DNA from: a virus
Virus record (IMG/VR): IMGVR_UViG_3300028393_000244
Location: 1-30,783 of that record
Reading direction: 5' to 3' (one strand)
Length of the DNA: 30,783 nucleotides
The notes beneath the pieces were generated by a model, which ran no database searches, was not told the origin of the DNA, and was given only the letters and a program-made list of their open reading frames with translations. Both the position numbers and the translations under genes were made by a program. Below, in pieces: positions 4,685 to 28,127 of this stretch (position 1 is its first letter; each line of letters begins with the position of its first letter).

Positions 4685-5320
4685 ATGCCAATCGCAAGTT
4701 TATCAAGATTCACAGTTCCACTGGTAACAGACCAAAGCAATTCTAGCCAAGGTTTGTTGATGCCAAAGTTGGCGTATCGCTTTCGCGTAACGCTGTTTAA
4801 CTTTGGAGTAGGTGGAGAACCATCAACAGAACTAACCAAACAGGTTATGAGCGTTGATCGTCCAAAACCAAAATTTGAAGAAATCAAATTAAGTGTTTAT
4901 AACAGTACAGTAAAATTAGCCGGCAAACCAAGTTTTGACGATATTAAATTAACTGTAAGAGACGATGTTACCAACGCTGTAACATTTAAAGTAGGACAGC
5001 AAATGCAGAAGCAGTTTGATTTCTTCGAACAGGCTAGTGCAGCTTCTGGATTGGATTACAAATTTAGGACCATTATTGAATTACTTGACGGTGGTAATGG
5101 AGCATATCAAGCCAACGTACTTGAATCATTTGAAGTACAAGGTTGCTGGCTAAAGAATGTGACTTATGCAGGCGGTGATTATAGCAAGGCAACAGATGCT
5201 ATGAGTATCGACTTAACAATCTGTTACGATAATGCAATACAACTCAACGGTGAAGGTGCTGTACGAGGTGTCGGACAGCCAGTAGGACGTACATTAGGAG
5301 CACTATCAGTTGGTACCTAA
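4685..5320 (+). CDS. 19: Tail tube protein gp19
   Basis: A 211-residue protein with the T4-type tail tube fold, which stacks in rings as the inner tube through which DNA is ejected. The sheath-tube gene order (18-19) is the T4 order. The core shows MLPK/AYRFRVTLFNF near the N-terminus, VDRPKPKFEEIKLSVYNSTV and FDDIKLTVRDDV in the middle, and FEVQGCWLKNVTYAGGDY...MSIDLTICYDNA near the end, the last being a family hallmark. It is somewhat longer than T4 gp19 (163). AAGGAG lies about 8 bases upstream of the ATG. A strong terminator follows 17 bases after the stop, so the sheath/tube transcript probably ends here. Confidence 0.88.
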   Translation: MPIASLSRFTVPLVTDQSNSSQGLLMPKLAYRFRVTLFNFGVGGEPSTELTKQVMSVDRPKPKFEEIKLSVYNSTVKLAGKPSFDDIKLTVRDDVTNAVTFKVGQQMQKQFDFFEQASAASGLDYKFRTIIELLDGGNGAYQANVLESFEVQGCWLKNVTYAGGDYSKATDAMSIDLTICYDNAIQLNGEGAVRGVGQPVGRTLGALSVGT

Positions 5321-5385: not shown

Positions 5386-6495
5386 ATGAGCGACTCTTTC
5401 ACAAATTGGTTAAGCAGTAGTGGCAATACTATTTTTAGAAGTTATAGCCATGCCACTGGCCTTTATGTCAATAATAACTACGCTAGAGCGCCTAAACTGG
5501 GATTTTTATATTTTGTATCATTTGATATAAATCCTGAAGCAGTATTGGATAATGTGTGGAAAGATTCCAGAAGAGATTTAGGATTATTAGTCAATAAAAT
5601 TGATCTTCCTAAATTCAAGATCAAGACAGAAACTGTAAATCAATATAATCGTAAAACACAAGTAGCTACTGGATTAACTTACGATCCGGTTAACATCGAA
5701 TTCCACGACGACAATAGTGAAATAACCAACGGGTTATGGAAAAATTATTACAAATATCATGTTGCTGATAGTAATTATGGCGATGACCGCGGCGGGATAA
5801 AATCTTTTGCAGATACCAAGTACGGAACCGTTGATTATTCATACGGTTTAGACAGTTATCCTATTAAGAGATTTTTTAATGCTATAGACATATATGTATT
5901 ACATCAACAAAACTTCACTCGGATGAGTTTAATAAATCCTAAAATATCTTCTTGGGATCACGCCACGTTAGATCAAGATCCAGGAAATAATATATTAAAA
6001 AATAAAATGACAGTTGTCTACGAAGATGTTTTATATTTTCAAGGAAAAATAGTTAAAGAAGACGAACCGTTAGGTTTTGCTGCCAAATATTATGATAATA
6101 CACCGAGTCCTATTTCAGTAGGGGGAAGTAAAAAATCTACACCGAGTGGAAAAGTAGATGTGTTTGGCCCTAACCCTGGGGAGTCTCGAGAAGTACGGCT
6201 GCCGGAGAAACAACCAGTAGGAGTAAATTCTCCTAGTGTTAGCCAATTACAAAAAGCCAAGGCCAAGAATAATGGCGCGGATAAATTAACCAGTAAATTT
6301 AAAAATGGTACTCCTGTGGCTAAACAGTCAGACCTACAAAAAGCCAACGGCAAGAATACAAGTATGGGGACTATTCAGAATTCAACTGGAGCAAAACCCA
6401 ATAATTCAAATTCCGGACTTTGTATCTATTCAGGAAGATCAAATACTACAGCAGCCGATACTGGAAATCCTGTAAAACTTACAACTAAAAAATAA
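5386..6495 (+). CDS. Tube-domain tail protein (gp19 paralogue; gp48/gp54-like)
   Basis: A 369-residue protein. The first 240 residues look like a tail-tube domain: GFLYFVSFDINPEAV near residues 39-53, then LPKFKIKTETVNQYNRK and YDPVNIEFHDDNS, which parallel the tube strands of gp19. The C-terminal 120 residues are low complexity (Lys, Asn, Ser, Gly), probably disordered. In T4 the tube initiator and cap proteins gp54 (320) and gp48 (364) also carry tube-like domains, so a baseplate/tube-initiator role is the best guess. The length is close to gp48, but I cannot choose between them. It starts its own transcription unit between the terminator at 5338-5367 and the next gene, and its stop overlaps that gene's ATG (TAATG). 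Confidence 0.6.
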   Translation: MSDSFTNWLSSSGNTIFRSYSHATGLYVNNNYARAPKLGFLYFVSFDINPEAVLDNVWKDSRRDLGLLVNKIDLPKFKIKTETVNQYNRKTQVATGLTYDPVNIEFHDDNSEITNGLWKNYYKYHVADSNYGDDRGGIKSFADTKYGTVDYSYGLDSYPIKRFFNAIDIYVLHQQNFTRMSLINPKISSWDHATLDQDPGNNILKNKMTVVYEDVLYFQGKIVKEDEPLGFAAKYYDNTPSPISVGGSKKSTPSGKVDVFGPNPGESREVRLPEKQPVGVNSPSVSQLQKAKAKNNGADKLTSKFKNGTPVAKQSDLQKANGKNTSMGTIQNSTGAKPNNSNSGLCIYSGRSNTTAADTGNPVKLTTKK

Positions 6496-16384: not shown

Positions 16385-16393
16385 GTGTATAAT
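16365..16393 (+). promoter_or_regulatory. Candidate sigma70 promoter at the uvsY/helicase-like junction
   Basis: TTGAAG (16365-16370, 4 of 6), a 17-base spacer, and a perfect TATAAT at 16388-16393. A start seven bases after the -10 falls at 16400, the A of the next gene's ATG. It overlaps the end of the UvsY-like gene and could drive the helicase-like gene and uvsW early. Confidence 0.45.
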
Positions 16394-16399
16394 ATAAAG

Positions 16400-17584
16400 A
16401 TGACCATAGAAGATATTGTAATTCACTTACGCTTGTTAAAAATCAACCTCCCATTATGGGAACAACAGTTGATGTCAAGTATTGCTGATCAAATTTCGCA
16501 AGGCTCCAGTCTGTCCGAAAAACAAGATGTTGTGGTTAGAAGGATTTTAAGTAAAAATAAATCTCATATATCAACTTCGATGGCACAAGACATATCCCCG
16601 TACTTGGAAAATCCCACTTACCGTAATTCTATTAGAAAAATCTCGTATGCGAAGAAAATTTCAGTGAAAAATGACGAGTATCAAAATAAAGATATCAAGG
16701 TAGTATTTCCTTACAACGAGGATTATGTAGATCAAATTAGAAAACATAGGGACGAATCTATTGGCAACAGAGCCGAATGGAACAAAGAGGAAAAATCCTG
16801 GAATTTTTCTCTCTCCGAAGGAAATATAAAATTTTTGATGGATTTTTCTCAAAAAAATGAATTTGAATTCGATGATGAATTTAATAATCTAGTCGGTCAA
16901 ACAAAAGATATCGTAGCCAACATGGAAAAATATGTCACAACATTGTCCATTGCTGATTCAATTCCTTATTTGAAAAATTCCAACAAATTTATCCCAAAAT
17001 TAGAGACAGAAAATATTTTACAGGCAATTTTTGAATCTCGTAAAAGAGGAATTTTCACATGGGATGACAATATTTCTGAATTTGTTGATACGATTGAAAA
17101 CACAGTAACCAAAGAATTTCTAAAATCTGCTGCTGACGCACAGATGCAAGTTGACCCTGAAAATCACTCAATTTCTTCACTGGAAGATGTGATAAAATAC
17201 ATGGGCCCTGTTTTGTTTGTTATCCCAGGAGTTGAAGAATTAGAAAAATTGAAAGAGGCCTTTAACTGTTTGAAAGAAATCGGAATCAAGAACGAAGAGA
17301 TGAGTGTGGTGTTTAGATTGCCAACAGAAACCGGCGGAATTTTCAATAATTTTGTCAAGGAACACCAATTGAACTCGCCCTTGACAGATCGAACTCGAAT
17401 AGTGTTTGTTAGCGGAAAACTTCCCAAGCCAATTTTAAAAAGTAAAATTAAATTTCACACCATAATAAACATGGGATTTCCTAATGTACATTATACTCTA
17501 AAAAATTACGTTGAAAATCAGGAAAATGTGGTGTTTTTTGTTCGTAAGAAAGAATACAGGAATAGAAATTTTGTCCTCATGTAA
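16400..17584 (+). CDS. Helicase-like protein without a P-loop (HARP-like domain), upstream of UvsW
   Basis: A 394-residue protein. The ATG at 16400 is preferred over a GTG at 16385, which lies inside a good -10 box. Residues about 23-50 contain QISQGSSLSEKQDVVVRRIL. Residues 98-150 (IKVVFPYNEDYVDQI...EWNKEEKSWNFSLSEGNIKFL) read like the HARP/SMARCAL1-type DNA-structure-binding fold. The last 130 residues resemble the second RecA lobe of an SF2 helicase (GPVLFVIPGVEELEKLKEAF, TRIVFVSGKLPKPI, FHTIINMGF). No Walker A or DExH is present. It overlaps the uvsW start, so it is probably a non-catalytic partner or a decayed duplicate. Confidence 0.55.
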   Translation: MTIEDIVIHLRLLKINLPLWEQQLMSSIADQISQGSSLSEKQDVVVRRILSKNKSHISTSMAQDISPYLENPTYRNSIRKISYAKKISVKNDEYQNKDIKVVFPYNEDYVDQIRKHRDESIGNRAEWNKEEKSWNFSLSEGNIKFLMDFSQKNEFEFDDEFNNLVGQTKDIVANMEKYVTTLSIADSIPYLKNSNKFIPKLETENILQAIFESRKRGIFTWDDNISEFVDTIENTVTKEFLKSAADAQMQVDPENHSISSLEDVIKYMGPVLFVIPGVEELEKLKEAFNCLKEIGIKNEEMSVVFRLPTETGGIFNNFVKEHQLNSPLTDRTRIVFVSGKLPKPILKSKIKFHTIINMGFPNVHYTLKNYVENQENVVFFVRKKEYRNRNFVLM

Positions 17585-19025
17585 AGTTATTATCAAAGAT
17601 GAAGTAAATATCAAGATTGAAAATTTAGATCTTGACACTCGTAAGGCTTTGGTCAAAAAATTCAAGTACGAAGACCCTACTGCCCGCTTTAGACCCAGCT
17701 TCAAATTGGGTCGATGGGACGGCAGTATTAGTTTTTTTGGTCTCGGCGGAACTACATATCTCAGTATGCTTGGACCTGTGTTAGAGTATCTTGAAAGCAA
17801 GAACTACTACATAGAACTAGAAGATCAGCGGACCAGTACAACCCTGGAATTTTCCGAGATTTTTGAAGATTTTTGGGGTGAAAAAACGTGGCCTGTAGGA
17901 CATAGATTTGCAGGAGAACTTATACGTTTACGCGATGACCAAGTTGATGTCATCAATAAGTTTTTAGAAAATCCTCAATGTCTCCAAGAAATTGCCACCG
18001 GTTTTGGTAAGACAATTACCACCGCAACTTTGGCGAAAATTTGTGAAAAATACGGTCGAACAATAACCATCGTTCCTAACAAAAGTCTTGTCGAACAAAC
18101 TGAAGAAGACTTTGTCAATGTTGGTTTAGATGTGGGTGTTTACTATGGAGACAGAAAAGATCTCAATAAAACACATACAATCTGTACTTGGCAAAGTTTG
18201 AATATTTGGGATAAAAAAAGCAAAAATGATGAGGACGTTTTACAGATTTCTGAGTTCTTAGAAGACGTAAGAACTGTTATGGTTGACGAGGTACACATGG
18301 CCAAAGCTGATGTATTGAAGAAATTACTGACACAGAATCTCAGTCATGTACCAATTCGTTGGGGACTTACAGGAACTATTCCAAAAGCGGAACATGAGTT
18401 TCAAGCACTTAGAGCAAGTCTGGGAGAAGTGGTAAATGTTGTCAAGGCACACGAACTACAAGAAGCAGGTATATTGAGCGATTGCCATGTCAATATTGTA
18501 CAAACAGCAGAATGGAAAGAATTTGGAAGTTACGCAGAAGAATTAAAATATCTTGTTACTGATACCACAAGAATGACACATATCAGTAATATGATTCGCA
18601 ACATCGCAACATCAGGCAATACCTTGGTCTTGGTTAATAGAATTGACTCAGGTAAGTTTATTATTGAACAAATACCAGAAGCGGTGTTTGTTTCGGGCGC
18701 AGTTAAAACTAAAGACAGAAAAGAAGAGTATGATGAAATTAGAACAAGTGATAACAAGATTATTGTGGCGACTTTTGGTGTGGCCGCTGTGGGTATTAAT
18801 ATTCCTAGGATTTTTAATCTGGTTCTTCTGGAGCCCGGAAAGAGCTTTGTCCGAGTTATACAGTCGATTGGGCGAGGTATTCGAAAAGCAGACGACAAGG
18901 ACTTCGTCCAGATCTGGGACATAACCGCAGCCAGTAAATACGCTAAAAGACACCTGACAGAAAGAAAGAGGTTTTATAAAGAAGCCCATTACCCATTTAA
19001 CATTGAGAAAGTAAAATATATATAA
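17571..19025 (+). CDS. uvsW: UvsW SF2 DNA/RNA helicase
   Basis: An SF2 helicase that processes R-loops and branched DNA and helps switch T4 from origin to recombination-dependent replication. I chose TTG at 17571, with CAGGAA about 9 bases upstream. It makes the protein begin MSSCKVIIKDEVNIKIE, matching the start of T4 UvsW; in-frame TTG 17511 and ATG 17526 are alternatives. The N-terminal domain has RFRPSFKLGRWDGSI. Helicase motifs (numbered from 17571): I TGFGKT (143-148), II DEVH (239-242), III GLTGTI, VI QSIGRGIRK (from 431). Length is 484 residues (T4 about 500). It overlaps the upstream pseudo-helicase by 14 bases and the next gene by TAATG. Confidence 0.92.
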   Translation: MSSCKVIIKDEVNIKIENLDLDTRKALVKKFKYEDPTARFRPSFKLGRWDGSISFFGLGGTTYLSMLGPVLEYLESKNYYIELEDQRTSTTLEFSEIFEDFWGEKTWPVGHRFAGELIRLRDDQVDVINKFLENPQCLQEIATGFGKTITTATLAKICEKYGRTITIVPNKSLVEQTEEDFVNVGLDVGVYYGDRKDLNKTHTICTWQSLNIWDKKSKNDEDVLQISEFLEDVRTVMVDEVHMAKADVLKKLLTQNLSHVPIRWGLTGTIPKAEHEFQALRASLGEVVNVVKAHELQEAGILSDCHVNIVQTAEWKEFGSYAEELKYLVTDTTRMTHISNMIRNIATSGNTLVLVNRIDSGKFIIEQIPEAVFVSGAVKTKDRKEEYDEIRTSDNKIIVATFGVAAVGINIPRIFNLVLLEPGKSFVRVIQSIGRGIRKADDKDFVQIWDITAASKYAKRHLTERKRFYKEAHYPFNIEKVKYI

Positions 19026-20237: not shown

Positions 20238-20443
20238 TGGAATATTCTAAAGAAAATACTATGCGGGTTTTGAAAGGTCAGTTTCCTATTCAGAAACTGC
20301 GTTGCCGTATGAATTGGCATCGATGGACCAGTTGGGAAGTAATTACAAACCCTAATTTTGGAAACACATATGCCCACTGTCATTGTGCAGACTGTGGTAT
20401 GCCACGGCAAGAACTTCCGTACACCAAAAGTAAGAGAATATGA
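20237..20443 (+). CDS. Small zinc-binding protein
   Basis: 68 residues from the ATG overlapping the upstream TGA (a GTG three bases earlier is possible). The C-terminal half holds AHCHCADCGMPR with C48, C50 and C53 plus H47/H49, and C23 lies upstream, so a zinc ribbon is likely. Trp-rich segment NWHRWTSWEV. Nothing more can be said of its role; it lies in the overlapped run of small genes between the gp62-like gene and dCMP deaminase. Confidence 0.65.
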   Translation: MEYSKENTMRVLKGQFPIQKLRCRMNWHRWTSWEVITNPNFGNTYAHCHCADCGMPRQELPYTKSKRI

Positions 20444-21135
20444 TCGCATTAGTAGAACAGCCTTATAATTGCATACATTGCGGCAAGAGTTTTATGAAAG
20501 ATAAAACTCTAGTAGCGCACATGTGCGAGCGTAAGAGACGTGCTCTACAAAAAGACGAGAAGCGTGTGCAAGCAGGTCTCATGGCATTTAATAGATTTTG
20601 GAAACTGACACAAGGTGCCAAGAAATCTAAGACATACGACGAATTTGCCGATAGTAGTTACTATAATGCTTTTGTCAAATTTGGCGGTTTTGTCAATAAC
20701 ATCAATCCATTATATCCAGATAAGTTTATCGACTTTGTGATTAAAAGCGGTATTAAGTTAGATCATTGGTGTAGAGATGATTTATACGAAAGATATCTTT
20801 ATGAAATAATCAAAGTAGAGCCAGTTGAAAGTGCTGTACAAAGAACATTAAAAACTATGATGGAATGGGGAGATGTTCAGAATGCCAATTTTGCCCACTA
20901 CTTCAAATATGTTAGTTTGAATAGAGCAGTACATGATATAAGTAACGGAAATATATCACCCTGGGTTATACTAAACAGTAATACAGGGCAGACTATGGTA
21001 AAGGGAATGAGCGACGATCAATTGGACATGATTGCACCTGCATTTGATATACCATACTGGCTACGTAGATTTCGAGAACTACCGGCCGATGTTATGCTGG
21101 TAAAAGAAATATGCTCAGAGGCAGGAATCGAATGA
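20440..21135 (+). CDS. Zinc-finger conserved protein, unknown function
   Basis: 231 residues. The N-terminus has a C2HC-type finger: C11, C14, H27, C29 (YNCIHCGKSFMKDKTLVAHM). The remainder is a helical region with conserved-looking blocks FVKFGGFVNNINPLYPDKFI, LDHWCRDDLYERYL and ISPWVILNSNTGQ. I recall this protein as widespread and unnamed in T4-like cyanophages. The finger suggests nucleic-acid or protein binding. ATGA couplings join it to both neighbours. Confidence 0.75.
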   Translation: MIALVEQPYNCIHCGKSFMKDKTLVAHMCERKRRALQKDEKRVQAGLMAFNRFWKLTQGAKKSKTYDEFADSSYYNAFVKFGGFVNNINPLYPDKFIDFVIKSGIKLDHWCRDDLYERYLYEIIKVEPVESAVQRTLKTMMEWGDVQNANFAHYFKYVSLNRAVHDISNGNISPWVILNSNTGQTMVKGMSDDQLDMIAPAFDIPYWLRRFRELPADVMLVKEICSEAGIE

Positions 21136-21703: not shown

Positions 21704-22128
21704 AACAAAAATTCAAAGATCTTTATATGGCGTGGGCTGAGCGTACAGCACAATTAAGTCACGCACGTAGATTACAAGTAGGTGCTGTCATTGTCAAAGA
21801 TGACAGCGTGATCAGTTATGGCTACAATGGTATGCCCGCTGGTTGGGAAAATGACTGCGAAAATATTGTAGGCTATGACACGAAGGGTCCTGTACTTAAA
21901 ACTAAGCCGGAGGTATTACATGCGGAATCTAATTCGATTGCCAAATTGGCTCGATCTACGAACAGTGGTTTGGGCGCTACTATGTTTGTTACCCATGCTC
22001 CATGTTTGGAGTGTGCCAAACTTATACACCAAAGTGGTATTAGCCACGTTCTATATCGTAGTGCTTATCGGGATTCTGGTGGCGTTGCGTTTCTCGAAAA
22101 ATCGGGTGTAAAGGTCGATCAAGTATAA
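21700..22128 (+). CDS. cd: dCMP deaminase
   Basis: Zinc enzyme converting dCMP to dUMP, supplying thymidylate synthesis during phage replication. 142 residues beginning with TTG at 21700 inside the upstream stop (TTGA). The deaminase signature is complete: HAE at 74-76 (zinc His and proton-shuttling Glu) and PCLEC at 101-105. The substrate-side motif SYGYNGMPAGWENDCE is the dCMP-specific version. It is shorter than T4 Cd (193), lacking some of its insertions. Coupled by TAATG to the mini Pol III alpha gene. Confidence 0.92.
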   Translation: MKQKFKDLYMAWAERTAQLSHARRLQVGAVIVKDDSVISYGYNGMPAGWENDCENIVGYDTKGPVLKTKPEVLHAESNSIAKLARSTNSGLGATMFVTHAPCLECAKLIHQSGISHVLYRSAYRDSGGVAFLEKSGVKVDQV

Positions 22129-22703
22129 TGGACATCGATATTGACTTTCCTGATAGACGACAAGTGCTGGATATAATCCGGCATATTCCGGCACGTCTTG
22201 AAGATGGAAAGAAACATAACACAGGTGTCTATTGTCATAGTATTCCTTACAATCCCATAACTGATACTGCTAGCATTGATTATAAATCTGCCGAGACGCG
22301 CGGATATTTTAAGATTGATTTCTTGAACGTCAGTGCTTATAACGGTGTCAAAGACGAAGCTCATCTTGTTCAACTGCTCAATACTGAACCACTGTGGGAT
22401 CTGTTATATGAGAAAGATGTGTGTGATCAATTGTTCCATGTCAATGGATATCACAATTTGTTGGCTGAATTACGACCTACAAGTATTGTGGAATTAGCCA
22501 CGGTACTGGCCATGATTAGACCCGGCAAAAAACATCTCATCCCAGTATGCAAGGAAAAAGGATTCAATGCCATTGATAATGAAATATGGACCAAGACTGA
22601 GGATGCCTATTTCTTCAAGAAGGCCCATGCCGTATCTTATGCGTCGGTTATTGTAGTTCAACTTAACCTCCTATGTGAACGAATTAGTTACGAGAACTCT
22701 TAG
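22128..22703 (+). CDS. Miniature DNA polymerase III alpha-like catalytic core
   Basis: A 191-residue protein whose motifs follow the bacterial C-family polymerase core in order. MDIDIDFPDRR (D2, D4, D6) matches the MPDFDVDF active-site block of E. coli DnaE (D401, D403). KKHNTGVYCHSIPYNPITD (28-46) matches KHAGGVVIAPTKITD. YFKIDFLNV (60-68, D64) matches LVKFDFLGL (D555). FHVNGYHNLLAELRP...VLAMIRPGK (to 134) matches FQLESRGMKDLIKRLQP...ALFRPG. YFFKKAHAVSYA (161-172) matches YGFNKSHSAAYA. PHP, tau-binding, clamp-binding and OB parts are absent, and the core is several-fold shorter. I recall unnamed homologues in T4-like cyanophages. Polymerase activity is unproven. It starts at the TAATG overlap with dCMP deaminase. 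Confidence 0.72.
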   Translation: MDIDIDFPDRRQVLDIIRHIPARLEDGKKHNTGVYCHSIPYNPITDTASIDYKSAETRGYFKIDFLNVSAYNGVKDEAHLVQLLNTEPLWDLLYEKDVCDQLFHVNGYHNLLAELRPTSIVELATVLAMIRPGKKHLIPVCKEKGFNAIDNEIWTKTEDAYFFKKAHAVSYASVIVVQLNLLCERISYENS

Positions 22704-23067
22704 GAATTCTCACCAATTGTATAGATTTCCGTTTGATTCTTTTCTCGGCAATCTCGCTTAGATTCACTGTTGGTCCGAATATTAATTCGGCATCTTTGCT
22801 ATTGAATGTTTTGATAGCATATCTAAATATCTGTATTTCTCTTTTTAAAAATATATTAATTGGAATTTTTCGATTGCTTTCCCACCACCAAATTTCCCCA
22901 AGTTCTAACAATAATTTCTTTTCTTCTTCGGTTTTTATTGTTGATATATCGTACATACTGCTCACATATGAATCAAAGTTTATTACAATTCCTACATATT
23001 CTATATCGTTGGATTTGATACAGGATACAAAAGGATAGTTAGTTTGAAAGGTACTGCTAGTGGTCAT
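22684..23067 (-). CDS. Conserved antisense protein, unknown function
   Basis: 127 residues on the minus strand, converging on the mini-polymerase gene with a 20-base overlap. Blocks: FVSCIKSNDIEYVGIVINFD, LLLELGEIWWWESNRKIPIN and FNSKDAELIFGPTVNLSEI, ending in a basic RIKRKSIQLVRIP. I recall an unnamed family with the same WWWESNR and RIKRRSIQLVR signature in marine T4-like phages, which supports this strand over the plus-strand reading. Divergent from the gene at 23089, with a TATAAATA box on the minus strand at 23107-23114. Confidence 0.75.
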   Translation of the reverse strand: MTTSSTFQTNYPFVSCIKSNDIEYVGIVINFDSYVSSMYDISTIKTEEEKKLLLELGEIWWWESNRKIPINIFLKREIQIFRYAIKTFNSKDAELIFGPTVNLSEIAEKRIKRKSIQLVRIPKSSRN

Positions 23068-23934: not shown

Positions 23935-24942
23935 ATGAACGAAATACAGTCTGCTGTTTTAGCTCTCCTACCACCATCTAGGAAGCAGACTCCTAGCGGC
24001 TGGATTTCGTTTAATTCGGCCTGTTGTCATAATCGAGGCGAAAAAAGAGATACTAGAAAACGTGGAGGAATAATGACCACACCTGAAGGTGGGTGGAGTT
24101 ATCATTGTTTCAATTGCGGATTCAAAGCCGGCTGGAGTCCTGGTAAACTGCTCAGTAAAAATACCAAAGATCTATTCCGTTGGTTGGGCATGAGCGATAC
24201 TGACATAGGCAAACTGAATCTAGTAAGTCTAAAACTCAAAGACGATCAACCAGTATTCAAAAAGCCATTAAACTTTACGTTAGAAGAACGACCTTTACCA
24301 GAAGGCGCCATGCTGCTCAAAGAGTGGGCATTGGCGGTTTGGCGTCCTGGCCAAGATGCAGACATGGTTCAAGTGTTTGAATACCTTGTCAGCAGAGGCA
24401 TGGATTTAGATTGGTATGATTGGATGTGGACACCTGCTGCTGGATACAAGGATCGATTACTTATACCTTTCTATCACGATGGTCGGATAGTCGGCTATAC
24501 CGGTCGTAAGATAACAGATGGCAAACCAAAATATCTAACAGATGCTCAACCGGGTTATGTGTTCAATATAGATCGGCAGACTGCTGATAGAAAATATGTA
24601 ATAGTTGTAGAAGGCCAGTTTGATGCTATAGCAGTTGATGGCTGTGCCATAATGCATAACGAACCTAACGAAACACAGATCATGCGTATAAACTCATTGG
24701 GTCGTGAAGTTATCGTTGTACCAGATAGAGATCGTGCTGGTGCCAAAATGCTCAAAGCAGCAACCGATCATAATTGGTCAGTGAGCTTACCTCCGTGGGA
24801 AGATGATGTCAAGGATGTGGCAGACGCTGTGAAAAGATATGGACGATTGTATACGCTATCCACGATATTACACTATCGTGTGTCAGGCGAGATAAATTTA
24901 CATCTAATGAAGAAAAAACTTGAAAGTATAACTGATGAATAA
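23935..24942 (+). CDS. 61: DNA primase gp61
   Basis: 335 residues (T4 gp61 is 342). It makes RNA primers on the lagging strand with helicase gp41. The N-terminal zinc module shows SACCHNRGEKR (C30/C31/H32) and YHCFNCGF (C58, C61). The TOPRIM domain has YVIVVEGQFDAIAVDG (E226) and the metal-binding VVPDRDRAGAKM about 40 residues later. LLIPFYHDGRIVGYTGRKI is also typical of DnaG-type primases. It overlaps gp41 by 8 bases (the ATG at 24935 lies inside its end), consistent with coupled production of the primosome. Confidence 0.93.
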   Translation: MNEIQSAVLALLPPSRKQTPSGWISFNSACCHNRGEKRDTRKRGGIMTTPEGGWSYHCFNCGFKAGWSPGKLLSKNTKDLFRWLGMSDTDIGKLNLVSLKLKDDQPVFKKPLNFTLEERPLPEGAMLLKEWALAVWRPGQDADMVQVFEYLVSRGMDLDWYDWMWTPAAGYKDRLLIPFYHDGRIVGYTGRKITDGKPKYLTDAQPGYVFNIDRQTADRKYVIVVEGQFDAIAVDGCAIMHNEPNETQIMRINSLGREVIVVPDRDRAGAKMLKAATDHNWSVSLPPWEDDVKDVADAVKRYGRLYTLSTILHYRVSGEINLHLMKKKLESITDE

Positions 24943-26413
24943 AAAAGCACCCAAACCCAATTACGATTACTCGATGCAGAAATTGTATCTAGAGATGTTT
25001 CTCTCTGATTCCGAAACATTTATTAGATGTCAAAATATATTTGATCCATTGAACTTTGATCAACGACTACAAACAGCAGCAGAATTTATCAACAAATATG
25101 TTGACGAATACAAAGTCATGCCCGAAGCCAATATCGTAAATGTTTCTACAAAGAGCGACTTCCAGCCAGCAGCATTGCCAAAAGAAAACTACGAATGGCT
25201 CATGGACGAATTTGAAAACTTTAGCAGACACAAAGGATTGGAAAGAGCCATTATCGAATCCAGTGATTTGTTGGAAGCAGGGGATTACGGTCCAGTAGAA
25301 AAACTAATCAAGGATGCTATCCAGATCAGTTTGAACAAGGACATGGGCACTGACTATTTTGAAGATCCGCGTGGCAGACTCGAAGCACTCAAAGACGGAA
25401 ATGGACAAGTTAGTACAGGCTGGCCCACAGTTGATAAGAAATTGTATGGTGGATTTAACCGTGGTGAACTCAACATTTTCTGTGCTGGATCGGGCGGTGG
25501 TAAGAGTTTGTTCTTGGCCAATCTAGGTGTGAACTGGGCACTGGCCGGACTCAACGTATTGTATCTGACTTTTGAATTGAGTGAGCGTTTGGTCAGTATG
25601 AGGCTTGATAGTATGACCACTGGTATTGCCACAAGAGAGATTTTTAAAAATATCGACGATGTAGAATTAAAAGTCAAAATGATCGGAAAGAAGGCAGGAA
25701 ACATACAAGTCAAGTATATGCCCAGCGGCAAAAATTGCAACGATATTAGAGCCTATTTGAAGGAATATCAGGTCAAAAAAGGTGTGAAACCTGACGTTTT
25801 GTTAATAGATTACCTGGATTTGATGATGCCTTTATCTGTGAAGGTCAGTCCTAGTGATCTGTTCGTAAAAGACAAATATGTGTCAGAAGAGATCAGAAAT
25901 CTAGCAATGGAGACACAATGTGTTACTGTAACTGCTAGTCAATTGAATCGTAGTGCTGTTGAAGAAATTGAGTTTGATCACAGTCATATTTCGGGCGGTT
26001 TGAGTAAAATCATGACGGCAGATAATGTCATAGGTATCTTTACCAGCAGGGCTATGAAAGATCACGGACGCTATCAAATACAGTTTATGAAAACTCGTAG
26101 CAGCAGCGGAGTAGGACAAAAGGTCGAGCTGGAATTCAATCTTGATACATTGAGAATCACTGATTTAGGCAACGAAGGTGAAGTTGAAAATATCACACAG
26201 AACAAGTCCAGCAGTGGTACTAGTTCAGTTATGCAAGCATTTAAGAGAACCAGTGTAGTCAGCACCAGTACAGACGACGAAGGATTGCGTGGCAATAAAT
26301 GGGAAAGAGCCACACCCAAAGAAGGATGGAGTTTGGAGAAACCTAATCCAGTGAAAACTGGTGCTCCATTGATCCGGAATATGTTGAATAATCTCAATCC
26401 AGAAAAGGATTAA
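24935..26413 (+). CDS. 41: Replicative DNA helicase gp41 (DnaB-like)
   Basis: 492 residues (T4 gp41 is 475). A hexameric 5'-3' helicase at the fork. The N-terminal helical domain (about 1-150) contacts primase. The RecA-like domain has GWPTVDKKLYGGFNRGELNI, Walker A GSGGGKS at 185-191, LYLTFELSERLVSMRLDS (catalytic Glu strand), Walker B VLLIDYLDLM, and TASQLNRSAVE with the sensor Gln. FMKTRSSSG near the end of the core is the arginine-finger region. The C-terminal 70 residues are Ser/Lys-rich and probably flexible. Its stop overlaps the stop of the convergent YqgE-like gene by 4 bases. Confidence 0.95.
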   Translation: MNKKAPKPNYDYSMQKLYLEMFLSDSETFIRCQNIFDPLNFDQRLQTAAEFINKYVDEYKVMPEANIVNVSTKSDFQPAALPKENYEWLMDEFENFSRHKGLERAIIESSDLLEAGDYGPVEKLIKDAIQISLNKDMGTDYFEDPRGRLEALKDGNGQVSTGWPTVDKKLYGGFNRGELNIFCAGSGGGKSLFLANLGVNWALAGLNVLYLTFELSERLVSMRLDSMTTGIATREIFKNIDDVELKVKMIGKKAGNIQVKYMPSGKNCNDIRAYLKEYQVKKGVKPDVLLIDYLDLMMPLSVKVSPSDLFVKDKYVSEEIRNLAMETQCVTVTASQLNRSAVEEIEFDHSHISGGLSKIMTADNVIGIFTSRAMKDHGRYQIQFMKTRSSSGVGQKVELEFNLDTLRITDLGNEGEVENITQNKSSSGTSSVMQAFKRTSVVSTSTDDEGLRGNKWERATPKEGWSLEKPNPVKTGAPLIRNMLNNLNPEKD

Positions 26414-26964
26414 AACCAATTTTCTACGCGAAATTGTGCTGCTTCATCTATGGCGCCGCGCCATTGATCTGTGCCATCTGATCCAAAAACATTCTCCAGT
26501 GTGGCAGGAACTATTTCCCATTTGTAAGAATCTTCTTGGTATTTTGGATCCAATTGCTGATCTAATTTACCATCACTCCAGGCACAAAATCCAGCACATG
26601 CCCTAAAGTATTTGGGACCCTCTCCTTGTACCAGGGCTGCTATCACACCAATGTCATTGGTAACAGATATTTCATCTGTTAATGATACTGTGCTGAGTCC
26701 TTTCCAATCGGACGAATGTACAACATGTATTTTGTTTTGACTGACATTGCCACCATAATATAGTGGATCATCTGCTAGATATTGTAGATTGATACGTTCA
26801 GCAATGGTTCTTAGATTCAGTTGATCCACAGCATTATTAACTTGTAATGCTATGGCATTTTGCGGAGTATGCGTCACCAGTAGTAAAACACTTTTGGCCA
26901 ATTCGTCTCTGGGATTGTTAGGATTGGCTACTAGCAAATGTCCAAGGTATCTTTTCTTTGTCAT
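26410..26964 (-). CDS. YqgE/AlgH family protein (DUF179, UPF0301)
   Basis: 184 residues covering the whole YqgE/AlgH family length (E. coli YqgE is 187). Family blocks: GHLLVANP at the start, then KSVLLLVTHTPQNAIALQVNN (E. coli: [22 protein letters not shown]), PLYYGGNVSQNKIHVVHSSD (E. coli: [20 protein letters not shown]), a catalytic-free sheet SVTNDIGVIAAL, and FCAWSDGKLDQQL (E. coli: YASWEKGQLEQEI). The cellular role of the family is poorly defined; AlgH is linked to regulation in Pseudomonas. Finding it in a phage is unusual. It is divergent from the nucleotidyltransferase gene and has a GGTAAATA box 9 bases upstream of its ATG. Confidence 0.82.
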   Translation of the reverse strand: MTKKRYLGHLLVANPNNPRDELAKSVLLLVTHTPQNAIALQVNNAVDQLNLRTIAERINLQYLADDPLYYGGNVSQNKIHVVHSSDWKGLSTVSLTDEISVTNDIGVIAALVQGEGPKYFRACAGFCAWSDGKLDQQLDPKYQEDSYKWEIVPATLENVFGSDGTDQWRGAIDEAAQFRVENWF

Positions 26965-26997: not shown

Positions 26998-27687
26998 ATG
27001 ATAGCAAATGAATTCGCAGATCCGATAGAGTTACACAGTGATTTAAATCCTAAACTATGGACAGGAGATGATCTGAAACCAGAAGTACGTCAAGGACTGT
27101 TAAGAATAGCCCAGGATTTTAAAGATTATATCGATGTACCTTTCCAGGTGGTAGATGTACAGGTTGCTGGAGGAAATGCCAATTATACCTATACAGAACA
27201 CAGCGATCTTGATTTACATTTGATAGCAGATTTTTCCAGTATCGCCTGCGACAGAGAAGTAGCAGAGTTATTTGACAGCAAGAGATTGCTGTATAAAGAA
27301 CGTTATGATGTCAAGATAAATGGAATTCCTGTAGAATTATATGTAGAAAATCTAGATCATCCAGCAGTTAGCAGCAGTTACAGCATATTGAAAAACCAGT
27401 GGATTAGAAAACCAGAGAAAACGGTAGCAGAAATAGACCGAGCAGAATTAGAGCGCATGGTTGATATTTGGCACACTGTCATCCAACATGCTATTCAAAC
27501 TGCTGATATGCCCAGTCTACAACGAGTTTTGAAAATGTTGAGACAATATAGAAAATTAGGACTGGCCAAACAGGGAGAATTCAGTGTTGCCAATCTTGTT
27601 TATAAAAGCCTACGCAACGACGATACTCTTAAAGGCTTGACCAAACTGCTGGATCGATTACACGATCGTGAACTGAGTATAGGTTAG
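26998..27687 (+). CDS. Nucleotidyltransferase-fold protein
   Basis: 229 residues. The pol-beta-type nucleotidyltransferase signature is complete: VAGGNANYTYTEHSDLDLHLI with G58-G59, D70 and D72, and the third carboxylate in IPVELYV (E113). The C-terminal half is helical (about 145-229, HTVIQHAIQTADMPSLQRVL, VANLVYKSLRNDDTL), like the helical partner of many stand-alone transferases. What it transfers (AMP, other NMP) and onto what cannot be read; candidates are a protein, tRNA or small molecule. It begins at a perfect late promoter, so it acts late or is packaged. Its stop overlaps that of the convergent GNAT-like gene by 4 bases. Confidence 0.72.
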   Translation: MIANEFADPIELHSDLNPKLWTGDDLKPEVRQGLLRIAQDFKDYIDVPFQVVDVQVAGGNANYTYTEHSDLDLHLIADFSSIACDREVAELFDSKRLLYKERYDVKINGIPVELYVENLDHPAVSSSYSILKNQWIRKPEKTVAEIDRAELERMVDIWHTVIQHAIQTADMPSLQRVLKMLRQYRKLGLAKQGEFSVANLVYKSLRNDDTLKGLTKLLDRLHDRELSIG

Positions 27688-28127
27688 GGATAAAGATAGT
27701 TAACAGTTTCGGGATTTATCCTAAAAACCTCAGCACCATTCCTTAGATGGAATATCCTGGCCATGTCAGTTGGTGGACTCAAAGTTACAAATTCCGTGAT
27801 ATTCTTTCTGTTACGATTAATCCAGGTGCGTGCCTGTAGTATCAATTTCCTACCGGCTCCAGGGCGATAACTCCAGATAGTGTAGAATACTGCCACATGG
27901 GTATCTTCATCGGGTTTGGCTGCTAGTTCCAAAACATCACCGGGTATCTTGGATCTGTAAGCCACACATACAACTGCCTCGGGTTCCAGTGTTTGTTCAT
28001 GTTGTAATACAAATATTTCGGTTGTGTCCGAAACTCTAAATTCTGCTGGAATTTCTGGGCGAACAGGATCGTCTGCTAATAGATTTAGCAAAGGATCGGT
28101 TAATGCTTGTATTATGTGTAAAGGCAT
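27684..28127 (-). CDS. GNAT-like acetyltransferase
   Basis: 147 residues with the order of a GNAT fold: EIFVLQHEQ..AVVCVAYRSK (strands 2-3), THVAVFYTIWSYRPGAGRKLILQA with the acetyl-CoA loop RPGAGR at 88-93 (the R/QxxGxG/A motif), and EFVTLSPPTDMARIFHLRNGAEVFRI (strands 5-6 with the usual FxxxNGA). It is shorter than many GNATs at the N-terminus. The substrate is unknown. It lies between the nucleotidyltransferase gene and the large fibre gene; a 7-bp inverted repeat (28128-28134/28146-28152) sits directly before its ATG. I recall similar predicted acyltransferases in marine T4-like phages. Confidence 0.6.
   Translation of the reverse strand: MPLHIIQALTDPLLNLLADDPVRPEIPAEFRVSDTTEIFVLQHEQTLEPEAVVCVAYRSKIPGDVLELAAKPDEDTHVAVFYTIWSYRPGAGRKLILQARTWINRNRKNITEFVTLSPPTDMARIFHLRNGAEVFRINPETVNYLYP

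Follow-up and report, generated by a model that had tools for sequence, protein, structure and literature searches.

A split, minimal form of DNA polymerase III alpha (Pol III alpha) has already been described from sequence in the group 2.2 jumbo phages (Iyer et al., 2021, Viruses 13:63, PMC7824862). The available text of that paper suggests that the two proteins reconstitute an enzyme, which might work together with the B-family polymerase in making one of the strands or in repair, and it reads the split form as a model of ancestral polymerase forms; a later reduction appears equally open. The stretch of DNA analysed here (the window, 30,783 nucleotides, IMG/VR virus record IMGVR_UViG_3300028393_000244) carries at positions 22128-22703 a gene for a protein of 191 residues, here called B. 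Judged from sequence profiles and fold models, B shows homology to the palm and fingers of the C-family DNA polymerases, and it is probably the C-terminal half of a two-chain minimal C-family polymerase, which would assemble with a second protein, A, as an auxiliary polymerase. An earlier note on this DNA had supposed the family to be undescribed, a view which the work of Iyer et al. corrects.

As far as the available text of Iyer et al. (2021) goes, no difference of kind separates the present system from theirs; two distant genes and a B-family polymerase are shared by the relatives of the window. Atu_ph07 is one of the group 2.2 phages named there, and both halves, A and B, were found in it. 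The jumbo phages of that study exceed 200 kb; the window is a 30.8 kb record with B alone, and its relative G001 comprises 221 kb. The present analysis may add the exact split point, a residue map, the fold comparison of both halves, the selection analysis and the counts, some of which may be contained in the figures or supplements of that paper. An acidic residue at the position of R390 (Escherichia coli numbering) and the occurrence in two Alishewanella phages of 141 kb may likewise be additions.

Single halves have been noted elsewhere. The accessible parts of the CBB paper (PMC5259590) report one truncated alpha-like protein of 172 residues and those of the Atu_ph07 paper (PMC6102473) name gp316; by place and length, both are half A. 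A survey of marine jumbo phages (PMC9123017), again in its accessible parts, gives the Pfam family PF07733 in 51.9% of one large group. An activity test of the split enzyme was not reported in the titles and abstract openings searched, a scope which leaves most subscription journals outside.

With bacterial Pol III alpha (DnaE) and PolC, the phage proteins share the palm, part of the fingers, the aspartate triad, K553, H760, the GRGS loop and the best fold matches. Unlike them, the phage enzyme would consist of two chains and lacks the thumb, the central fingers, the C-terminal region and the PHP domain (PF02811, found in 0 of 14 phage records and in 14 of 14 control genomes). Full-length phage DnaE proteins are C-family and phage-borne too, yet these are single chains of 1,029-1,251 residues (seven annotated examples), compared with about 360 residues for A and B together. 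In cyanobacteria, DnaE is also encoded by two genes, but the break lies elsewhere and the chains are rejoined by a trans-splicing intein. The phage half A ends and half B mostly begins at the junction itself, so that there is no room for an intein.

Gene B and the Pol III alpha core

The ATG start codon of B shares its first base with the stop codon of a dCMP deaminase gene (TAATG). The open reading frame (ORF) is a real gene under strong purifying selection. The ratio of non-synonymous to synonymous substitution rates (dN/dS, omega) between the B of the window and its relatives was 0.05-0.13 in the 12 of 13 comparisons giving a value (synonymous sites were saturated in the thirteenth), and 0.02-0.16 in nine other non-identical pairs (of 11, two of them identical). 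That B might be a decaying remnant of a full DnaE was considered in view of the small size of B and of the many DnaE-like matches in other phages (1322 records, of which 1257 cover at least 80% of the query). This explanation is contradicted by omega values of 0.05-0.13, and the constant split point and conserved synteny described below also speak against it, which makes it exceedingly improbable.

Residues 1-185 of B matched PHROG_11778 'DNA polymerase' (4.4e-62) in the PHROGs database, where phrog_405, a DNA polymerase family of DnaE length (1190 positions), also matched at 4.2e-7. The Pfam family DNA_pol3_finger gave an E-value of 0.03, which is below the cut-off and a hint at most, and a search of the Protein Data Bank (PDB) with the single B sequence returned only two chains, both Pol III alpha (E 0.73 and 1.2). 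A profile of 86 B sequences matched Pol III alpha 5lew in the PDB at 3.7e-5. Comparison with eight DnaE sequences by hhalign gave a probability of 96.3% (E 1.6e-9) and placed B 28-133 on E. coli 509-641.

For the fold comparison, A and B were modelled with AlphaFold2 as single chains, B with 85 homologues. The best B model reached a predicted local distance difference test (pLDDT) of 89.1 and a predicted template modelling score (pTM) of 0.75, the pLDDT of the five models being 80-89. Its residues 3-189 were superimposed on residues 403-784 of E. coli alpha (2hnh) with Z 9.6, a root mean square deviation (rmsd) of 4.9, 181 aligned residues and 19% identity. The top 13 rows of this structural alignment were C-family polymerases with Z 6.0-9.6, and the best unrelated row had Z 3.4; 9qrn, 9qpc and 9qrl, titled just 'DNA polymerase', were taken as PolC from their numbering and counted as C-family. 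Strands 2-6 and 62-66 of the model, which bear the aspartates, are predicted in the same places as in Pol III alpha, a comparison made at the level of strands. The earlier note had proposed a stripped-down C-family palm/fingers piece with five motifs in DnaE order. All five are present in B, the PHROG and profile matches put the series beyond chance, and sequence profile and predicted fold agree on such a piece.

The gene and its conserved positions, mapped on E. coli alpha, are as follows; residue counts refer to 142 distinct B sequences from 168 loci, none of which was dropped for absence of a motif.

22128-22703, + strand: gene B, 191 amino acids, putative half of a split minimal C-family DNA polymerase with catalytic palm strands and reduced fingers (profile, alignment and fold model)
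22131-22145, + strand: D-I-D-I-D, first catalytic strand (model strand 2-6); D2, D4 and D6 correspond to D401, D403 and D405; identical in 142/142
22215-22226, + strand: H30..G33, corresponding to H511 and G514 by hhalign; identical in 142/142
22311-22319, + strand: K62 and D64 (model strand 62-66), corresponding to K553 and D555, the third catalytic aspartate; identical in 142/142
22518-22529, + strand: R-P-x-K; R131 corresponds to R639 and K134 stands at P642; R131 and K134 identical in 142/142
22614-22640, + strand: F-K-K-x-H-x-x-x-Y; F163, H167 and Y171 correspond to F756, H760 and Y764; identical in 142/142

The aspartates D2, D4 and D64, which the earlier note had taken as the catalytic ones, are thus the same in every distinct sequence. 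Of the two outcomes which that note had named as refuting its palm/fingers reading, freely varying aspartates and aspartates apart in the model, neither was observed, the second being judged from the positions of the strands. L66 (corresponding to L557) and K164 are constant as well (142/142), and the constant residues K134 and K164 occupy the positions of P642 and N757 of E. coli alpha. The short spacing of the aspartates reported in that note was also borne out: D6 and D64 are separated by 58 residues, compared with 150 between D405 and D555, and the catalytic pair D4 and D64 by 60, compared with 152. The thumb (E. coli about 433-510) is gone from B, in which residue 30 already corresponds to E. 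coli 511. Because the thumb is missing, H30..G33 nearly abut the first catalytic strand. H760 has been modelled as the steric gate against ribonucleotides in Pol III alpha (Mol. Microbiol. 2021, PMC8485763, accessible parts), and the equivalence of H167 to this proposed sugar-selecting histidine suits the use of deoxynucleoside triphosphates.

The partner gene and the split point

Searching four named jumbo phages for a second DnaE with PF07733 revealed one small gene in each, at another place in the genome than B, and none at B. This match led to the partner gene A, which is annotated 'DNA polymerase' or 'DnaE-like' in these phages; its neighbourhood includes a clamp-loader gene in three of the four and an AAA-ATPase gene in Phosso. 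The four products comprise 169-177 residues with a C-terminal G-[VL]-G-R-G-S ... E-F-L-x, that of PBECO4 being one residue longer. In public records, either half carries labels such as 'DNA polymerase', 'DNA polymerase III alpha', 'putative membrane protein' or 'hypothetical protein', and this inconsistency has obscured the pairing of the halves.

Half A corresponds to a DnaE sequence that stops a few residues short of M-P-D-I-D-I-D-F, the starting point of B. The stretch between the beginning of GxGRGS and the stop codon of A comprised 35-44 residues in 92 of 92 loci and exactly 35 in 72; five of these loci repeat a record already counted, and 80 were collected by a scan that used GRGS as one of two patterns, a choice that leaves the end point of A unconstrained. 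In B, 137 of 168 rows have their nearest methionine 1-2 residues ahead of the first aspartate; in the other 31 it is more distant or absent. No A-B fusion was found among the 92 A loci. The equivalents of R362, G363 and S364 were constant in 55 of 55 A sequences, and R-G-S was also present in the four named phages, which had been found without patterns.

Alignment of A with DnaE by hhalign gave a probability of 97.8% (E 1e-12) and placed the last 76 residues of A on E. coli 320-395. In the PDB, all nine sequences matched by a profile of A are Pol III alpha (E 0.007-0.01). The A protein chosen for modelling (locus L179, 71% identical to the A of G001) gave pLDDT 91.6 and pTM 0.68, and its residues 76-172 were superimposed on E. 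coli 278-393 (2hnh, Z 10.0), the best match being 5lew with Z 12.1 and rmsd 2.1 Å. Here the top 16 rows were C-family polymerases (Z 7.5-12.1) and the next row had Z 2.8. The ranges covered by A (278-393) and by B (403-784) do not overlap, which indicates that the two halves tile one polymerase core. Residues 1-75 of the modelled A (L179:4204-4719) were confidently modelled and lie outside all aligned ranges; they may be a phage-specific addition.

In G001, the closest relative on a long contig (221 kb, B 91% identical), A is located at 50188-50703 and B at about 202.7 kb, about 150 kb apart. Nine A queries found nothing below E 0.2 in the window, and all nine found a control locus. The GxGRGS loop is not present in B and belongs to half A in the relatives.

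The earlier note had suggested that B could be a miniature polymerase by itself. All three catalytic aspartates are present in B, which was also modelled with confidence as a lone chain (pLDDT 89.1). However, B lacks the GRGS loop and the preceding palm helices, whereas A, which holds exactly these parts, ends where B begins and accompanies B in 62 of 63 named records. Without the GRGS half of the palm, which the second gene supplies, B is only half an enzyme, and a stand-alone polymerase or transferase of 191 residues seems most unlikely.

Occurrence of both halves and the case for an auxiliary polymerase

In the phage collection, B matched 142 records at E<=1 and 63 at E<=1e-10. The strong matches are mostly large myophages with 31-51% identity, among them PA5oct, 121Q, PBECO4, RaK2, CBB, GAP32, Atu_ph07, Phosso and SCTP-2. 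Of the 63 strong records, 60 were listed and the remaining three were deduced to be Stenotrophomonas phage RAS14 and two Alishewanella phages; the cyanophage relatives mentioned in the earlier note are not among them. The weak matches include 68 Streptomyces phages, for which the rows listed carry DnaE-like DNA polymerase III or DNA polymerase labels. Among plasmids, the search gave two weak matches only, one of them annotated dnaE. Relatives of B in IMG/VR numbered 121 confirmed matches in one pattern scan and at least 583 in another, and an identical protein is encoded on one 25 kb contig (L001).

Sixty-two of the 63 named B records also carry A, although many of the 63 are near-identical and the independent lineages are far fewer. 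Half A was found in 60 named records, all of them B records, at E<=1e-15, and in divergent form in the two Alishewanella phages. The count of 60 depends on this cut, since 528 records were matched at E<=1, and Mycobacterium and Streptomyces phages with a DnaE make up many of these. The sole named B record without A is a Klebsiella phage of 109.5 kb (PP728206), which may be incomplete; most other Klebsiella records with B have 346-360 kb. The Alishewanella phages Slicko01 and Slickus01 have genomes of 141 kb, in which about 11 kb lie between A and B, so that the split enzyme is not limited to genomes above 200 kb.

In metagenomic contigs, most misses fell on short fragments. Among those chosen for B, A was present in 2 of 16, both of at least 200 kb, and the 14 without A have 38-93 kb. 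Among those chosen for A, B was present in 7 of 24, including 6 of 6 of at least 259 kb, and the 17 without B have 38-191 kb. Of four further large B contigs, two carry A.

The four named phages PBECO4, Paride, Phosso and Atu_ph07 all carry a B-family polymerase, as do 12 of 13 further records, G001 among them. The DNA_pol_A family was over the cut-off in none of the four named phages (one weak match). A DnaQ-like proofreading partner (RNase_T, PF00929) was considered and rejected as a constant companion of the split polymerase because of its patchy occurrence: of 14 records, five exceeded its cut-off, three gave a weak match and six, G001 among them, gave none. As a separate observation, the B-family polymerase lies in two separate open frames, as if interrupted or split, in Pseudomonas phage Paride (88906-92683), Agrobacterium phage Atu_ph07 (212336-213688) and Alishewanella phage Slicko01 (3529-5033).

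Homology, complementary coverage of the core, constant active-site residues, purifying selection, joint occurrence of A and B and a replication-module context are directly supported. The assembly, catalysis and job of A and B we infer from their sequences. The two chains would join non-covalently into one palm, A bringing the helices at the start of the palm together with the Gly-Arg-Gly-Ser loop. In DnaE, this loop handles the phosphates of the incoming nucleotide. From B would come the two-metal site (D2, D4 and D64), K62 and a short piece of the fingers, the last element of which is the helix of the steric-gate histidine. Since the PHP domain, the thumb, the middle of the fingers and all regions after the fingers are missing, a slow, distributive enzyme making short DNA would be expected. 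Such an enzyme could extend primers or fill gaps beside the phage primase and helicase, the B-family polymerase copying the genome.

Several observations weigh against an auxiliary polymerase made of A and B. The fingers stretch with Q687, E688 and R709, all three invariant in the eight DnaE sequences, is deleted in B. All 55 A sequences have E or D in place of R390, which is invariant in the same eight, and 136 of 142 B sequences have H in place of Q610, invariant as well. An enzyme without Q687, E688, R709, R390 and Q610 may not polymerise, and the loss of these residues is the chief ground for caution. The fold matches are of limited strength: the best Foldseek E-values are modest (2.6e-3 for B and 4e-2 for A), the rmsd of B to C-family chains is 4-5 Å, and according to the caveat of the aligner, values of Z < 8 can reflect a common arrangement alone. 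The constancy of residues arises partly by construction, as the scan patterns included GRGS, DIDIDF and FKKxH; DIDIDF stood in one of six patterns of one B scan and FKKxHxxxY in one of two of the other, and any one of several patterns sufficed. In six aligned named phages found without patterns, D4, D6, H30, G33, K62, D64, R131, K134, F163, H167 and Y171 were kept, D2 being unscored because one row is truncated. Some large contigs have one half only, namely G042 (280 kb) and G043 (199 kb) with B and G020 (191 kb) with A; these may be fragments. Finally, the correlation of A and B distances over 16 genomes (Mantel r 0.78, 0 of 10,000 permutations as high, without a control gene) is expected from shared descent alone and is no proof of complex formation.

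The same losses bear on the question of whether a complex of A and B copies a template. It could be a nucleotidyltransferase-fold complex acting as a terminal transferase, as an end-tailing enzyme or as a replisome regulator that binds nucleotides or DNA ends. The missing thumb and fingers stretch (Q687, E688 and R709), the acidic residue at R390 in 55 of 55 A sequences and the B-family polymerase that these phages already own would fit such a role. On the other hand, the steric-gate histidine and its helix, which a non-polymerase does not obviously need, are kept in 142 of 142 B sequences, and B adjoins primase and helicase; a function of this kind seems rather unlikely. Less credible still is the view, in part raised by the earlier note, that A and B are catalytically dead and serve as a decoy or scaffold binding the clamp-loader or polymerase partners of the host. 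A decoy would fit the absence of the large accessory regions and the seeming redundancy of a second polymerase, but it would be expected to keep surfaces instead of the metal ligands and GRGS loop, which are constant in their respective halves (with the reservation on patterns made above). The C-terminal parts of Pol III alpha bind clamp and tau, and precisely these are absent from the phage proteins. Neither the decoy nor the DNA-end sensor proposed in that note found specific support.

Within the auxiliary polymerase reading, a more definite version can be tentatively put forward, although we regard it as possible rather than probable: A and B would form a working two-chain polymerase of about 360 residues. 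Starting from primers of the neighbouring phage primase, this minimal C-family core would make short stretches of DNA and then hand over to the B-family polymerase. Its active site would have been rebuilt to do without R390 and R709, the phage-specific constant lysines K134 and K164 standing in for them. If the two proteins come together as an active enzyme, they would reveal how small a part of the bacterial replicase suffices for DNA synthesis and would provide a system of about 360 residues for C-family catalysis, which is otherwise carried out by proteins of at least 1,000 residues. The pair would then also bear on why these phages keep a second type of polymerase beside the B-family enzyme.

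Genomic surroundings of gene B

The genes around B were compared in 163 loci, near-identical ones included, the denominators being the loci with enough flanking sequence.

17511-19025, + strand: UvsW-type helicase, upstream (phrog_16 at 1.2e-76, UvsW_N below cut-off); in place in 87/105
20440-21135, + strand: 231-residue protein, phrog_11058, just upstream, its first part giving a sub-threshold match to a C2H2 zinc finger; in place in 125/141
22684-23067, - strand: convergent gene for 127 residues, phrog_11637 (unknown function, PHROG E 6.9e-31), overlapping the 3' end of B; in place in 144/149
23935-24942, + strand: DNA primase, downstream (phrog_47 at 2.3e-38); in place in 121/123
24935-26413, + strand: DnaB-like replicative helicase, downstream (phrog_19 at 2e-71); in place in 95/103

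Pieces of this replication block also adjoin B in PBECO4, Paride, Phosso and Atu_ph07, and a structural-type gene was found within the conserved block in 128 of 134 loci. The convergent phrog_11637 gene is conserved context and at most a candidate part of the system. The earlier note had tied B to nucleotide metabolism through the dCMP deaminase. The one-base TAATG overlap is real, but the arrangement is local: the deaminase is found directly upstream of B in just 16 of 158 related loci, whereas the primase stands downstream in 121 of 123, and a link of B to the deaminase was rejected.

Some further genes of the window were recorded. A 399-residue ORF (16385-17584, + strand) between UvsY and UvsW matched nothing in PHROGs at 1e-3 or in Pfam at 0.01; at the corresponding place, PBECO4 has an exonuclease (RNase_T) gene between UvsY and a DEAD/DEAH helicase. 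An AlgH-like protein (DUF179, PF02622, E 1.3e-20) is encoded at 26410-26964 (- strand). A 147-residue ORF at 27684-28127 (- strand) matched the C-terminal domain of malonyl-CoA decarboxylase with 33.7 bits, compared with a Pfam cut-off of 23.2 bits. Two tail-tube-like genes (4685-5320 and 5386-6495, + strand) lie side by side after the gene for a tail sheath of 987 residues.
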